DNA from: Cupriavidus taiwanensis LMG 19424
GTDB lineage: Bacteria; Pseudomonadota; Gammaproteobacteria; Burkholderiales; Burkholderiaceae
Assembly: GCF_000069785.1 (NCBI RefSeq)
Contig: NC_010528.1
Location: 2,170,001 to 2,234,000, forward strand
Reading direction: 5' to 3'
Length of the DNA stretch: 64,000 nt
The position numbers and the translations under genes were made by a program. This document shows, piece by piece, positions 54,143-57,208 of this stretch. Positions within the stretch are counted from its first letter, which is position 1, and each line of letters begins with the position of its first letter. The notes under the pieces are model-generated. The model ran no database searches and was not told the origin of the DNA. It was given only the letters and a program-made list of their open reading frames with translations.

Positions 54143-55348
54143 TCAGTCGCCCAGGCCGCGCAGCAGGTCGGCCTTCAGGTCTTCGACGGACTCCAGCCCC
54201 ACCGCCAGGCGGATCAGCCCTTCGCCCACGCCCGCGGCCGCCTTGGCCTCGGGGCTGACGCGCGCGTGCGTGGTGGTGTACGGGTGCGTGATGGTGGTGC
54301 GGGTGTCGCCCAGGTTGCCGGTGATCGAGCACAGCCGCGTGTTGTCGATCACGCGCCAGGCGTTGGCGCGCTGCTGCTCGGGCGTGGCGCCCTTCAGCTC
54401 GAACGAAACGATCGCGCCGCCGCCGCTCTGCTGGCGCATGGCAATCTCGTGCTGCGGGTGCGACGCCAGCGCCGGGTGGAACACGCGCGCCACCGCCGGG
54501 TGCGATTCGAGGAACTGCGCCAGCGCCAGCGCGCTGGAGGAATGGCGCTCCATGCGGATTGCCAGTGTCTCCATGCCCTTGAGCAGCACCCAGGCATTGA
54601 AGGCCGACAGCGTCGGCCCGGCGGTGCGCACGAACGGGAACACCTTGCCCATGATGAAGTCTTGCGAGCCCAGCACCGCGCCGCCCAGCACGCGGCCCTG
54701 GCCATCGATATGCTTGGTGGCGGAGTGCACCACGATATCGGCGCCGAATTTCATCGGCTGCTGCAGCGCGGGCGAGCAGAAGCAGTTGTCGACCACCAGC
54801 AGCGCGTTGGCGTCGTGGGCGATGTCGGCCGCCGCCGCGATGTCAGCCACCTCGGTCAACGGGTTCGACGGCGTCTCCAGGAAGAACAGCTTCGTGTTCG
54901 GCCGCACTGCCGCACGCCACGCTTCTAGGTCGGTCGGGTCGACAAAGGTCGTCTCCACGCCGAACTTCCCGAAGATATTGTTGAACAGCGTCATGGTCGA
55001 GCCGAAGATCGCGCGCGAGCTGACCAGGTGGTCGCCGGCCTGCATCGACGACAGCACCACCGACAGGATCGCGCTCATGCCCGACGCCGTGGCCATGCAG
55101 GCCTGCGCCCCTTCCAGCGCGGCCAGGCGCGACTGGAACATCGACACGGTCGGGTTGGTGAAACGCGAATAGGTGTAGCCCTCTTCCGAGTTGGCAAAGC
55201 GCTCGGCGGCCTCGGCGGCGCTGTTGAAGCAGAAGCTTGAGGTCAGGTACATGGCCTCGGAGTGCTCCATGAACTCGCTGCGCAGCGTGCCGGCGCGCAC
55301 GCCAAGAGTATCGATGCCGAGCGATTCAGGATTGAGCGGTTGGTTCAT
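54143..55348 (-). CDS. metZ: O-succinylhomoserine sulfhydrylase
   Basis: MetZ makes homocysteine directly from O-succinylhomoserine and sulfide, a PLP-dependent step of methionine synthesis. The 401-residue Cys/Met-metabolism enzyme has YTYSRFTNPTVSMFQ, the PLP lysine in HSATKHIDGQGRVLGG, and FLETPSNP. The ATG giving MNQPLNPESLG was chosen; the upstream open frame of 67 codons crosses the leader terminator. It follows purF in the same direction but has its own promoter, a SAM-II-like riboswitch and a terminator hairpin in its 280-nt leader. Confidence 0.96.
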   Translation of the reverse strand: MNQPLNPESLGIDTLGVRAGTLRSEFMEHSEAMYLTSSFCFNSAAEAAERFANSEEGYTYSRFTNPTVSMFQSRLAALEGAQACMATASGMSAILSVVLSSMQAGDHLVSSRAIFGSTMTLFNNIFGKFGVETTFVDPTDLEAWRAAVRPNTKLFFLETPSNPLTEVADIAAAADIAHDANALLVVDNCFCSPALQQPMKFGADIVVHSATKHIDGQGRVLGGAVLGSQDFIMGKVFPFVRTAGPTLSAFNAWVLLKGMETLAIRMERHSSSALALAQFLESHPAVARVFHPALASHPQHEIAMRQQSGGGAIVSFELKGATPEQQRANAWRVIDNTRLCSITGNLGDTRTTITHPYTTTHARVSPEAKAAAGVGEGLIRLAVGLESVEDLKADLLRGLGD

Positions 55349-55428: not shown

Positions 55429-55469
55429 GAAAAAAGCCCGTGCGATCGGATGGTCGGATCGACGGGCTT
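55429..55469 (-). terminator. Intrinsic terminator in the metZ leader
   Basis: On the minus strand AAGCCCGT pairs with ACGGGCTT, extended by CGATC/GATCG inside, and is followed by six Ts. It lies 80 bp upstream of the metZ start and about 100 nt downstream of the SAM-II-like aptamer. It could be the riboswitch-controlled attenuator of metZ or simply catch transcripts from purF. Confidence 0.8.
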
Positions 55470-55571
55470 GCTGTTCTGCGAATGGCCGTGGGCTTCAGGC
55501 TGTGGCGGCCGGCTTCCGGGCCTCGCGGCGCCGGCAAGGCGCTGCGCATCGGGAATCGTTGCTGGCCACCA

Positions 55572-55630
55572 TCTCTTTAGCTGTTTCGGGCTGTACCCGC
55601 GTCCGCAAGCTGACTATCAAATCGACGCCC
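55572..55630 (-). ncRNA. SAM-II (metA-type) riboswitch, candidate
   Basis: Read on the minus strand, this leader segment has the order of elements of the SAM-II aptamer. The P1 arm GCGTC (55624-55628) is followed by GATTTG (55618-55623), then CTTGC, then the other P1 arm GACGC (55599-55603), then the conserved GCTAAAG (55575-55581), whose bases form the pseudoknot in known examples. A small hairpin CGGG-TACAG-CCCG (55587-55599) sits in the third loop. It lies immediately after the metZ promoter and upstream of metZ, a sulfur gene class that SAM-II controls. High SAM would be expected to lower metZ expression. Identification is by eye against the remembered consensus. Confidence 0.72.
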
Positions 55631-55634
55631 GGCC

Positions 55635-55663
55635 ATGTTACGGCCGGGCCCCGCATTCGTCAA
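55635..55663 (-). promoter_or_regulatory. Sigma-70 promoter of metZ
   Basis: On the minus strand TTGACG (55658-55663), a 17 bp spacer and TAACAT (55635-55640). Transcription would start near 55628, right at the first arm of the riboswitch aptamer. The -10 lies in the loop of a GCCCGGCC/GGCCGGGC inverted repeat (55627-55649). Confidence 0.7.
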
Positions 55664-55678: not shown

Positions 55679-57208
55679 TTACTCGTTGCCGCCGGAGCGC
55701 TGCAGGTGCAGTTGCGAGCGCTCGGTGTCAGCGCCGGTGCCGTCGCGGTCGGCCTGGCTGCGCGCGGTTTCCAGGCGATCCAGGTAGGCCTCGTCGATAT
55801 CGCCGGTGATGTAGCGGCCGTCGAAGCACGAGGCGTCGAAGTCGTTCAGCGCCGGGTTGATGTCGCGCACCGCCTGCTTCATCGCTTCCACGTCCTGGTA
55901 CACCAGCTTGTCCGCGCCGATGATCTTGGCGATCTCTTCGTGCGTGCGGCCATGCGCTACCAGTTCGCTGCGGGTCGGCATGTCGATGCCGTACACGTTG
56001 GGGAACTTCACCGGCGGCGCGGCCGAGGCGAAGATCACCTTGTTGGCGCCGGCGTCGCGCGCCATCTGCACGATCTCGAACGAGGTGGTGCCGCGCACGA
56101 TCGAGTCGTCGACGATCAGCACGTTCTTGCCCTTGAACTCCACGCCCATGGCGTTGAGCTTCTGGCGCACGGACTTCTTGCGCACCGCCTGGCCAGGCAT
56201 GATGAAGGTGCGGCCGACGTAGCGGTTCTTGAAGAAGCCTTCGCGGTAGTTCACTCCCAGACGGTTGGCAACCTGCATCGCGGCCGGACGGCTGGAATCG
56301 GGAATCGGCATGACCACGTCGATATCGCCGGCCGACACTTCCTGGCGGATCTTCTCGGCCAGGTAGTCGCCCATGCGCAGGCGCGCGTCGTAGACCGGCA
56401 CGCCATCGATGCACGAATCCGGACGCGCCAGGTAGACGTACTCGAAAATGCAGGGCGTCAGCACCGGGTTGTCGGCGCATTGCTTGCTGTAGAGCTTGCC
56501 GTCGAGGTCGATGAAGATGGCCTCGCCCGCTGCCACGTCGCGCTCGAACTTGTAGCCGATGCCTTCCAGCGCCACCGATTCCGAGGCGACCATCCATTCC
56601 TTGCCGGTGGGCGTCTCGACGCTGCCCAGGCACAGCGGCCGGATGCCGAACGGATCGCGCACCGCCAGCATGCCGTAGCCGGCGATCTGCGCCGAGATCG
56701 CGTACGAGCCGCGCACGCGGCGGTGCATGCCCGCCACGGCCTTGAAGATGGTTTCCGGATCGAGCGCCATGCCGTTGCTGGCGCGCTGCAGCTCGTCGGC
56801 CAGCACGTTCAGCAGCACTTCGGTATCCGAATGCGTGTTGATATGGCGGCGGTCGCGGCGGAACATCTCCTCGCGCAGCTGCTGCCAGTTGGTCAGGTTG
56901 CCGTTATGCGCCAGGATGATGCCGTAGGGGGCGTTGACGTAGAACGGCTGCGCCTCTTCCTCGCTCGAGGCCGAGCCGGCGGTCGGGTAGCGCACCTGGC
57001 CGATGCCCGCGTTGCCGGGCAGGCCGCGCATATTGCGCGTGCGGAAGACATCGCGCACCAGGCCGTTGGCCTTGTGCATGTGGAAGGTACTGCCGTTGGC
57101 GGTGGCGATGCCGGCAGCATCCTGTCCGCGGTGTTGCAACAACAGCAGGCTGTCGTAAATCAGTTGGTTGACAGGCGTGGATGACACCACACCGACGATA
57201 CCGCACAT
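55679..57208 (-). CDS. purF: Amidophosphoribosyltransferase
   Basis: PurF makes 5-phosphoribosylamine from PRPP and glutamine, the committed step of purine synthesis. The 509 residues start MCGIVGVV, so Cys2 is the exposed glutaminase nucleophile after methionine removal. The glutaminase half shows HNGNLTNW and the C-terminal phosphoribosyltransferase half has the PRPP motif [13 protein letters not shown]. There are no cysteines arranged for an iron-sulfur cluster and no propeptide, so it is the E. coli-type enzyme. It follows cvpA by 104 bp. Confidence 0.98.

Follow-up and report, generated by a model that had tools for sequence, protein, structure and literature searches.

A SAM-II-type element with an extra hairpin in the metZ leader of Cupriavidus taiwanensis and its relatives

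What kind of RNA precedes metZ in Cupriavidus taiwanensis LMG 19424, and how might it act on the gene? An earlier note, made from the DNA letters alone, proposed a riboswitch resembling SAM-II with its own promoter and terminator. Annotation points elsewhere. In the window, by which we mean the whole analysed stretch of 64,000 nucleotides (contig NC_010528.1, positions 2,170,001 to 2,234,000), the sole Rfam matches at curated cut-offs are three tRNAs, and under permissive settings the strongest match in the 371 nt around the leader is to RF02424, ‘Burkholderia sRNA Bp2_287’, on the strand opposite to metZ. At the window’s edge, on the minus strand, two near-identical tRNA genes lie in tandem (1-67 and 131-203). 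From comparisons of sequence, we consider that the leader is very probably a SAM-II-type OFF switch that responds to SAM and belongs to a subtype bearing an additional hairpin, P3.

SAM-II in betaproteobacteria is already in print. The class was described with a promoter adjoining P1 and frequent terminators, in a study that lists Bordetella bronchiseptica in the legend of a figure (Corbino et al., 2005; PMC1273637), and has been reported as most common in Alpha-, Beta- and Gammaproteobacteria (PMC2704228). A later survey placed SAM_alpha in Rhizobiales and Rhodobacterales only, and described a ‘novel’ betaproteobacterial metXZ element with a pseudoknot and a terminator, found in one copy per genome and before metX in 30 of 35 cases (Leyn et al., 2014; PMC4239095). 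The accessible text of its metXZ account does not mention the metZ leaders of Burkholderia or Ralstonia. A precedent comes from Sinorhizobium meliloti, where a SAM-II leader of metZ with predicted SAM-dependent termination yields a short leader RNA, the sRNA RZ (Scheuer et al., 2022; PMC9373788); it shares gene, predicted mechanism and short RNA with the window’s leader and differs in its alphaproteobacterial host. Among openly available texts, outside subscription journals, we found no publication on the P3 subtype, on the strand of RF02424, or on a link between SAM-II, the metXZ element and Bp2_287.

Architecture and conservation of the metZ leader

In the minus-strand leader a promoter is followed by a SAM-II-type aptamer (55628-55571), then by an intrinsic terminator (55469-55430) and finally by the metZ ATG at 55348. 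The features are as follows.

Ends at 55679, minus strand: 509-codon open reading frame upstream of the leader, called purF after the locus drawn in PMC3521395
55663-55635, minus strand: sigma-70-type promoter, TTGACG (55663-55658), 17-nt spacing, TAACAT (55640-55635), 6 nt 5' of P1
55628-55624, minus strand: GCGUC, 5' strand of P1, pairing with GACGC (P1 covariation)
55623-55618, minus strand: GAUUUG, predicted third strand of the P2 triplex, corresponding by our own mapping to U8, U9 and U10 in SAM-V numbering
55614-55612, minus strand: (G)UC, 5' strand of P2a, able to pair with GA(U) at 55573-55571
55611-55605, minus strand: AGC followed by TTGC; UUGC (55608-55605) is the 5' strand of the P2b pseudoknot
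55604, minus strand: G, P1a base, able to pair with C55583
55603-55599, minus strand: GACGC, 3' strand of P1 (P1 covariation)
55598-55588, minus strand: P3 hairpin GGGU-ACA-GCCC, inserted directly after P1
55587-55582, minus strand: A-rich joint GAAACA, from the alignment of relatives
55581-55575, minus strand: GCUAAAG, 3' strand of P2b, corresponding by our own mapping to U47, A48 and A50 in SAM-V numbering
55573-55571, minus strand: GAU, 3' strand of P2a, from the sequence, with the pair counted in relatives
55480-55470, minus strand: block CGCAGAACAGC just before the terminator, conserved within Cupriavidus, an antiterminator candidate
55469-55430, minus strand: intrinsic terminator, hairpin 55469-55434 and six U at 55435-55430, -20.0 kcal/mol, with a bulge and an internal loop
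55348-54143, minus strand: metZ, O-succinylhomoserine sulfhydrylase, 401 aa, gene name after the locus in PMC3521395
55431-55651, plus strand: match to RF02424, ‘Burkholderia sRNA Bp2_287’, 47.9 bits, E 1.1e-9, below the cut-off of 70

The promoter proposed in the earlier note is present: a promoter scan of the leader returned one such site against a mean of 0.2 in shuffles, and TTGAC(G/T)-17/18-TA(A/C)CAT stands 6 nt ahead of P1 in all 17 element-bearing leaders of the Cupriavidus clade. The MetZ encoded downstream is 96-99% identical to that of C. necator, C. alkaliphilus, C. neocaledonicus and further named Cupriavidus, among the best 80 of 126 relatives.

All pieces of the proposed SAM-II layout (GCGTC, GATTTG, CTTGC, GACGC, GCTAAAG) occur on the minus strand. 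GATTTG, TTGC and GCTAAA are invariant in 31 of 31 rows of one alignment and 38 of 38 of a second, and the longer GCTAAAG is unchanged in 31 of 31, bearing out the expectation that GATTTG and GCTAAAG would be conserved in related leaders. The covariation anticipated for P1 was also found. In alignment A6, whose rows are related and whose shuffle counts are not probabilities, 98.9% of P1 cells are paired and 16 are double-changed, against 2.8 in shuffles. Two of five measures lie near shuffle values: three of five pairs changed on both sides against 1.7 in shuffles, with 56 of 500 shuffles as high, and further pair types numbered 5 against 4.8, near chance. Many of the double changes fall between the SAM_alpha-type rows and the others, and the rows are related, so the changes may reflect few events. 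In Pandoraea, P1 reads ACGUC/GACGU.

The remaining helices are predicted. Barrick and Breaker (PMC2258182) had anticipated a P1a pair; of 38 sequences, 35 have G-C there and 3 have A-U. The P2b pairs, UUGC with GC(U)AA, are present in all 38, and being invariant they contribute no covariation. P2a, 2 bp in the hairpin-less relatives, is paired in 80.3% of cells, with one of its two pairs changed on both sides; in the window UC/GA can form, for a P2a of 2-3 bp. A single-strand fold of the aptamer was no better than shuffles (z 0.15).

In the SAM-V structure the ligand is contacted by U47 and A50, together with U8 and the U20:A48.U9 triple, with a metal at U10 (PMC6061858). By position, in our own mapping, these bases have counterparts in the window; the place of A18, the partner of A50, is taken by C, as in SAM_alpha rows with GGCUUGC.

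Model searches and a hairpin shared with SAM-V

Rfam’s own models do not place the element. SAM_alpha (RF00521) gives an end-to-end alignment with the minus strand of the 371 nt under permissive settings, at 14.0 bits and E = 1 against a cut-off of 36, and SAM_V (RF01826) returns nothing at E <= 10 in the same interval; the significant match to one or the other that the earlier note looked for is thus missing. As the curated SAM_alpha model fails to recognise the element, we treat it as a divergent SAM-II subtype and not as a plain SAM_alpha member.

A broadened model, R1, which includes P3-type sequences and models four of the five P1 pairs, gives the window 61.3 bits; this match is circular and was not used, as the window is in R1’s training set, and a second model, R2, was therefore built. 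R2 derives from 38 sequences, SAM_alpha-type rows from outside the window’s class but in the same phylum (presumably Alphaproteobacteria) and hairpin-less relatives, and contains neither P3 nor the window. It matches the window at 41.2 bits (E 2.7e-8), the sole match up to E = 5, which upholds the proposed layout. Of 45 P3-bearing loci tried (24 of the 30 RF02424 loci fetched, 20 of the 32 P3-bearing leaders among the 43 with the element, and L072), R2 matches all 45 at E <= 7.5e-4, in 19 over the P1-L1 part only.

Searches across larger groups suggest that such elements are widespread. At E <= 0.01, R1 has matches in 274 of 399 genomes from the order, covering 122 of 158 genera, where about four chance genomes are nominally expected. 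MetZ, MetX or MetK, the three proteins checked for, lies downstream of 29 of the best 30 loci (three MetZ at about 34% identity). Among metZ loci of public genomes, R1, trained on the P3 type, finds the element in 43 of 80 (best 80 of 126 relatives). RF00521 itself matches 57 of 299 genomes of the phylum, five of them in the window’s order and three more in its class. Among ten weaker matches fetched, those in the order precede metX (L062, L063, L064, L066) or metZ (L065), and those in the class precede metZ (L067) or metK (L068, L069). Some hairpin-less relatives reach the SAM_alpha cut-off of 36 (L174, 38.1; G138, 36.2). Rfam’s SAM_V matched none of the 299 genomes, in a search that had no positive control and is therefore uninformative on absence.

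Several further elements came to light. Elsewhere in the C. taiwanensis genome another SAM-II-like element, this one with a long P3, stands before metX (L072:1165-1260; G000 C1 near 150.7 kb), with TATAAT ahead and a terminator behind; it scores 41.8 bits with R1, is absent from the training of R1 and R2, and has no Rfam match at E <= 0.05. SAM_alpha and RF02424 both miss E 0.05 in this locus and in L162, and R1 finds both. Tandem SAM-II-like elements with a terminator after the first occur in L103 (1501-1558 and 1655-1720) and L070 (582-642 and 752-806). The second element of L103 bears a P3-like hairpin; MetZ, MetX and MetK were sought downstream of L103 and none was found. SAM-II-like elements also stand ahead of metK, which encodes SAM synthetase, in the class (L068, L069) and the order (L075, L077, L085, L086, L090).

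The copies before metX are probably the published metXZ element, judging from layout and genes and compared by its description: both occur in betaproteobacterial metX and metZ leaders, with pseudoknot regions 1-4 and 2-6 and a terminator behind (PMC4239095). Unlike the elements here, the metXZ element as described is not tied to SAM-II, and being reported at one copy per genome it may leave the metZ copies of Burkholderia and Cupriavidus outside.

The extra hairpin recurs in leaders of named Cupriavidus, Pandoraea, Paraburkholderia and Chitinasiproducens and in RF02424 loci. Its stem is maintained across 37 distinct third loops (P3 plus joint), whose lengths range between 16 and 76 nt. Most stems close with GGG/CCC, and the fourth pair is U-G, G-C, G-U, A-U, C-G or U-A in the register picked by the script. 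Pair types were counted over the 37 third loops, with the stem finder taking a shifted register for Burkholderia GGGGC..UUCCC; L070:752-806 was left out, and as some loci appear under two spans, n per form counts spans. The earlier note had seen in the leader a less typical betaproteobacterial variant with a small hairpin in the third loop. The comparisons bear out the hairpin; SAM-II-like elements in betaproteobacteria are less unusual than the note held, and the hairpin recurs across genera.

In the available account of SAM-V, its published P3 is the closest counterpart of this hairpin; P3 and a 2-bp P2a mark SAM-V there, whereas SAM-II is without P3 and has a 5-bp P2a in 60% of cases (PMC6061858). 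With SAM-II the window’s element shares P1, the GAUUUG third strand, the predicted UUGC/GCUAAA P2b and the P1a pair, as well as a promoter just 5' of P1, a terminator behind and an association with methionine genes. It differs in carrying P3 where SAM-II has a GUUAAA..AAGU stretch, in its P2a of 2-3 bp and in its sub-threshold score. With SAM-V it shares P3 straight after P1, the A-rich joint after P3, the 2-bp P2a and counterparts of the contact bases, but its P1 has 5 bp where that of SAM-V has 4, and it is followed by a transcription terminator where SAM-V has a Shine-Dalgarno sequence within P2a. The window’s P2a lies more than 220 nt from the ATG, with the terminator between. Judged by its sequence, then, the window’s subtype combines the SAM-II sequence and platform with two SAM-V traits, P3 and the 2-bp P2a; we assign it to SAM-II by homology and architecture, although it scores below the Rfam cut-off and bears a P3 that SAM-II lacks.

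Since both of these traits are those of SAM-V (PMC6061858), the aptamer could instead bind a relative of SAM, such as SAH, or control translation as SAM-V does. We find this quite improbable. Counterparts exist for the bases that recognise the sulfonium charge (U9, U20) and the adenine (U47), and Burkholderia and Ralstonia are reported to have a separate SAH riboswitch for ahcY (PMC4239095). Against control of translation, the purine-rich tail lies more than 220 nt from the ATG, and no nearby in-frame start is common to the 17 Cupriavidus-clade leaders. A translation start near the aptamer was considered and rejected: the window has an in-frame ATG 201 nt 5' of the metZ ATG, but in-frame starts vary across the 17 leaders, and several have none beyond 54 nt.

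The Bp2_287 family on the opposite strand

If the minus strand carries a SAM-II-type switch, what is the RF02424 match on the plus strand? The family is frequent among the window’s relatives, with matches in 49 of 120 genomes of its taxonomic family at E <= 0.001 and in 28 above the cut-off. RF02424 starts with the complement of the U-tract and runs past the complement of P1, and so is the reverse complement of the terminator and aptamer. In the 30 loci fetched, which are the best RF02424 matches (weaker ones and some second matches per genome were left out), the strand facing the match carries a SAM-II-like core with MetZ downstream, in 30 of 30. The two descriptions meet in L174, a metagenome-assembled genome labelled ‘Proteobacteria bacterium’, where SAM_alpha matches the metZ strand at 38.1 bits and RF02424 the opposite strand in the same place at 33.3 bits; SAM_alpha also matches the metZ strand in L177.

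RF02424 could alternatively mark a genuine plus-strand gene for a small RNA that is antisense to the metZ leader. Besides the match itself and its frequency above cut-off in the family, this reading can call on an RT-PCR product in B. pseudomallei, listed on the minus strand of chromosome 2 (PMC3521395). That study combined prediction with RT-PCR primed by oligo(dT), which leaves the strand unsettled, and its authors observed that in most genomes Bp2_Cand287 precedes methionine genes, and raised the idea of a cis-acting element (PMC3521395); SAM-II is nowhere named for Bp2_Cand287 in the accessible text. Because the family opens with the complement of the U-tract, the terminator would function on the metZ strand only. 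The promoter 6 nt before P1 is directed at metZ in 17 of 17 Cupriavidus-clade leaders; in RF02424 loci L001-L028 it is weaker, with a best match of 5-7 of 12. We added a mirrored test of the 37 third loops, given that the stem finder shifted register in one form and accepts only standard pairs. The metZ strand gave the longer P3 stem in 13 of these and the other strand in 2, with 22 ties, and G-U pairs numbered 23 on the metZ strand against 4 on the other. Together with the SAM_alpha matches in L174 and L177, these observations leave a plus-strand gene extremely improbable.

By length the published RNAs resemble the span from P1 to the U run. RIT77, equated with BTH_s31 and Bp2_287 and classed as an sRNA (PMC10987360), spans 135 nt, and BTH_s31 is 143 nt long (PMC4035088), both similar to the 137-138 nt that this span measures in L001-L008, the eight best RF02424 loci. 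RF02424 thus shares with the switch the locus, terminator and aptamer of metZ leaders, and differs in being modelled on the opposite strand and typed as an sRNA gene. By this evidence, all of it from sequence comparison apart from the cited work, the plus-strand match would be the reverse complement of the switch and not an independent gene.

Terminator, proposed switching and what the element implies

The earlier note described a perfect hairpin followed by six Ts. The six Ts and a strong terminator (-20.0 kcal/mol) are there, though the hairpin has a bulge and an internal loop; a simple terminator scan of the leader listed 0 terminators. Among relatives a terminator accompanies the element in 42 of 44 leaders (the window and L139, with a proper terminator 24 nt downstream of the aptamer, included) against 2 of 37 leaders that lack it, an association that represents fewer than 81 independent cases as the leaders are related. 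The two terminator-like matches in element-less leaders lie more than 200 nt before metZ.

The Cupriavidus clade is evenly divided, with the element present in 17 of 34 loci (L105-L138) and absent in 17. In the 17 element-less leaders GATTTG and GCTAAA are both absent from the final 450 nt, as is any run of five Ts from the final 300 nt, and in several the upstream stop is a few tens of nucleotides or less from metZ. Since the whole module is missing from half of these leaders, it is dispensable. Palindromes of the type CTCTCCCGC..GCGGGAGAGG lie upstream of metZ instead in L114, L116, L119, L120 and L127, where the module is missing.

How might an aptamer of this kind be coupled to its terminator? 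In hairpin-less leaders the GCUAAA strand pairs with the 5' arm of the terminator better than with shuffled arms (p <= 0.05) in 24 of 39, for example GCUAAAGCGAGG with CCCCGUUUUAGC, and this pairing uses at least four of the six GCUAAA bases in 28 of 39. With GCUAAA shared between them, P2b and the antiterminator would be mutually exclusive, which would make for a clean OFF switch. Outside Cupriavidus, the pairing reaches p <= 0.05 in 8 of 32 P3 leaders, four of them from Pandoraea (L139, L140, L143, L144). Two hairpin-less leaders, L078 and L091, had been binned as P3 by a length rule; the corrected counts are 7 of 30 for P3 and 25 of 41 for hairpin-less leaders. For L025 and L030, what this test treated as the terminator was an early weak hairpin.

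In the Cupriavidus clade the GCUAAA antiterminator reaches p <= 0.05 in 0 of 15 leaders; for L108, whose tail and terminator letters are the window’s own, p is 0.786. The direct antiterminator GAUG-GU-GGC against GCC-CGUC was rejected as drawn on the same 0 of 15. The aptamer’s GCUUGCGG might pair with the conserved block that precedes the terminator; 1 of 17 leaders shows this at p <= 0.05, and the pairing is a candidate only.

These results raise the possibility that in Cupriavidus the aptamer no longer switches its terminator, which would then be constitutive, with a short leader RNA as the main product or with control exerted elsewhere. The lack of a supported antiterminator in 15 leaders and an aptamer-terminator spacer of 55-124 nt speak for it, as does the S. 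meliloti metA terminator, which has no predicted antiterminator in the published account (PMC9373788). Conservation of the aptamer speaks against it: 12 of 13 leaders keep 53-57 of 57 aligned aptamer positions, and in four of these the spacer retains just 26-29 of 93. An aptamer nearly unchanged beside an eroded spacer looks as though it has been selected together with the terminator. Within that spacer the CGCAGAACAGC block stands out, retaining 13-14 of 16 aligned positions in L112, L113, L117 and L118 against the 26-29 of 93 in the rest. Loss of switching thus seems unlikely to us, and we continue to favour a SAM-responsive OFF switch.

The mechanism that we propose builds on what the comparisons establish at the sequence level: the aptamer layout, P1 covariation, conservation of SAM-contact bases, P3, the promoter, the terminator, and the joint presence or absence of the parts. 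Transcription would start at the 5' edge of P1. When SAM is abundant, it would be bound by the pseudoknot formed by the GAUUUG third strand and the UUGC/GCUAAA P2b, and the terminator upstream of metZ would then stop transcription, releasing a leader RNA about 200 nt long. Under SAM limitation, a portion of the aptamer would be free to interfere with the terminator and metZ would be read; in Cupriavidus this would involve an antiterminator pairing that we infer.

More broadly, we lean, with moderate confidence, towards the view that the metZ leaders of Burkholderiaceae form a P3-bearing SAM-II subclass between SAM-II and SAM-V, which arose by insertion of a hairpin into the third loop of a common betaproteobacterial SAM-II. 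On the same view SAM-II is a general methionine switch of Burkholderiales, acting before metX, metZ and metK and hidden under two names, one of them a wrong-strand sRNA family. One known mechanism would then explain an orphan Rfam sRNA family and, probably, an orphan metXZ element. Natural intermediates between SAM-II and SAM-V with nearly identical cores would make it testable whether P3 and the length of P2a play a part in the choice between control of transcription and of translation. Transcriptome counts of RIT77, BTH_s31 or Bp2_287 as an sRNA related to stress or infection may reflect attenuation of metZ, and many Burkholderiales genomes would gain a likely SAM sensor for metX, metZ and metK.
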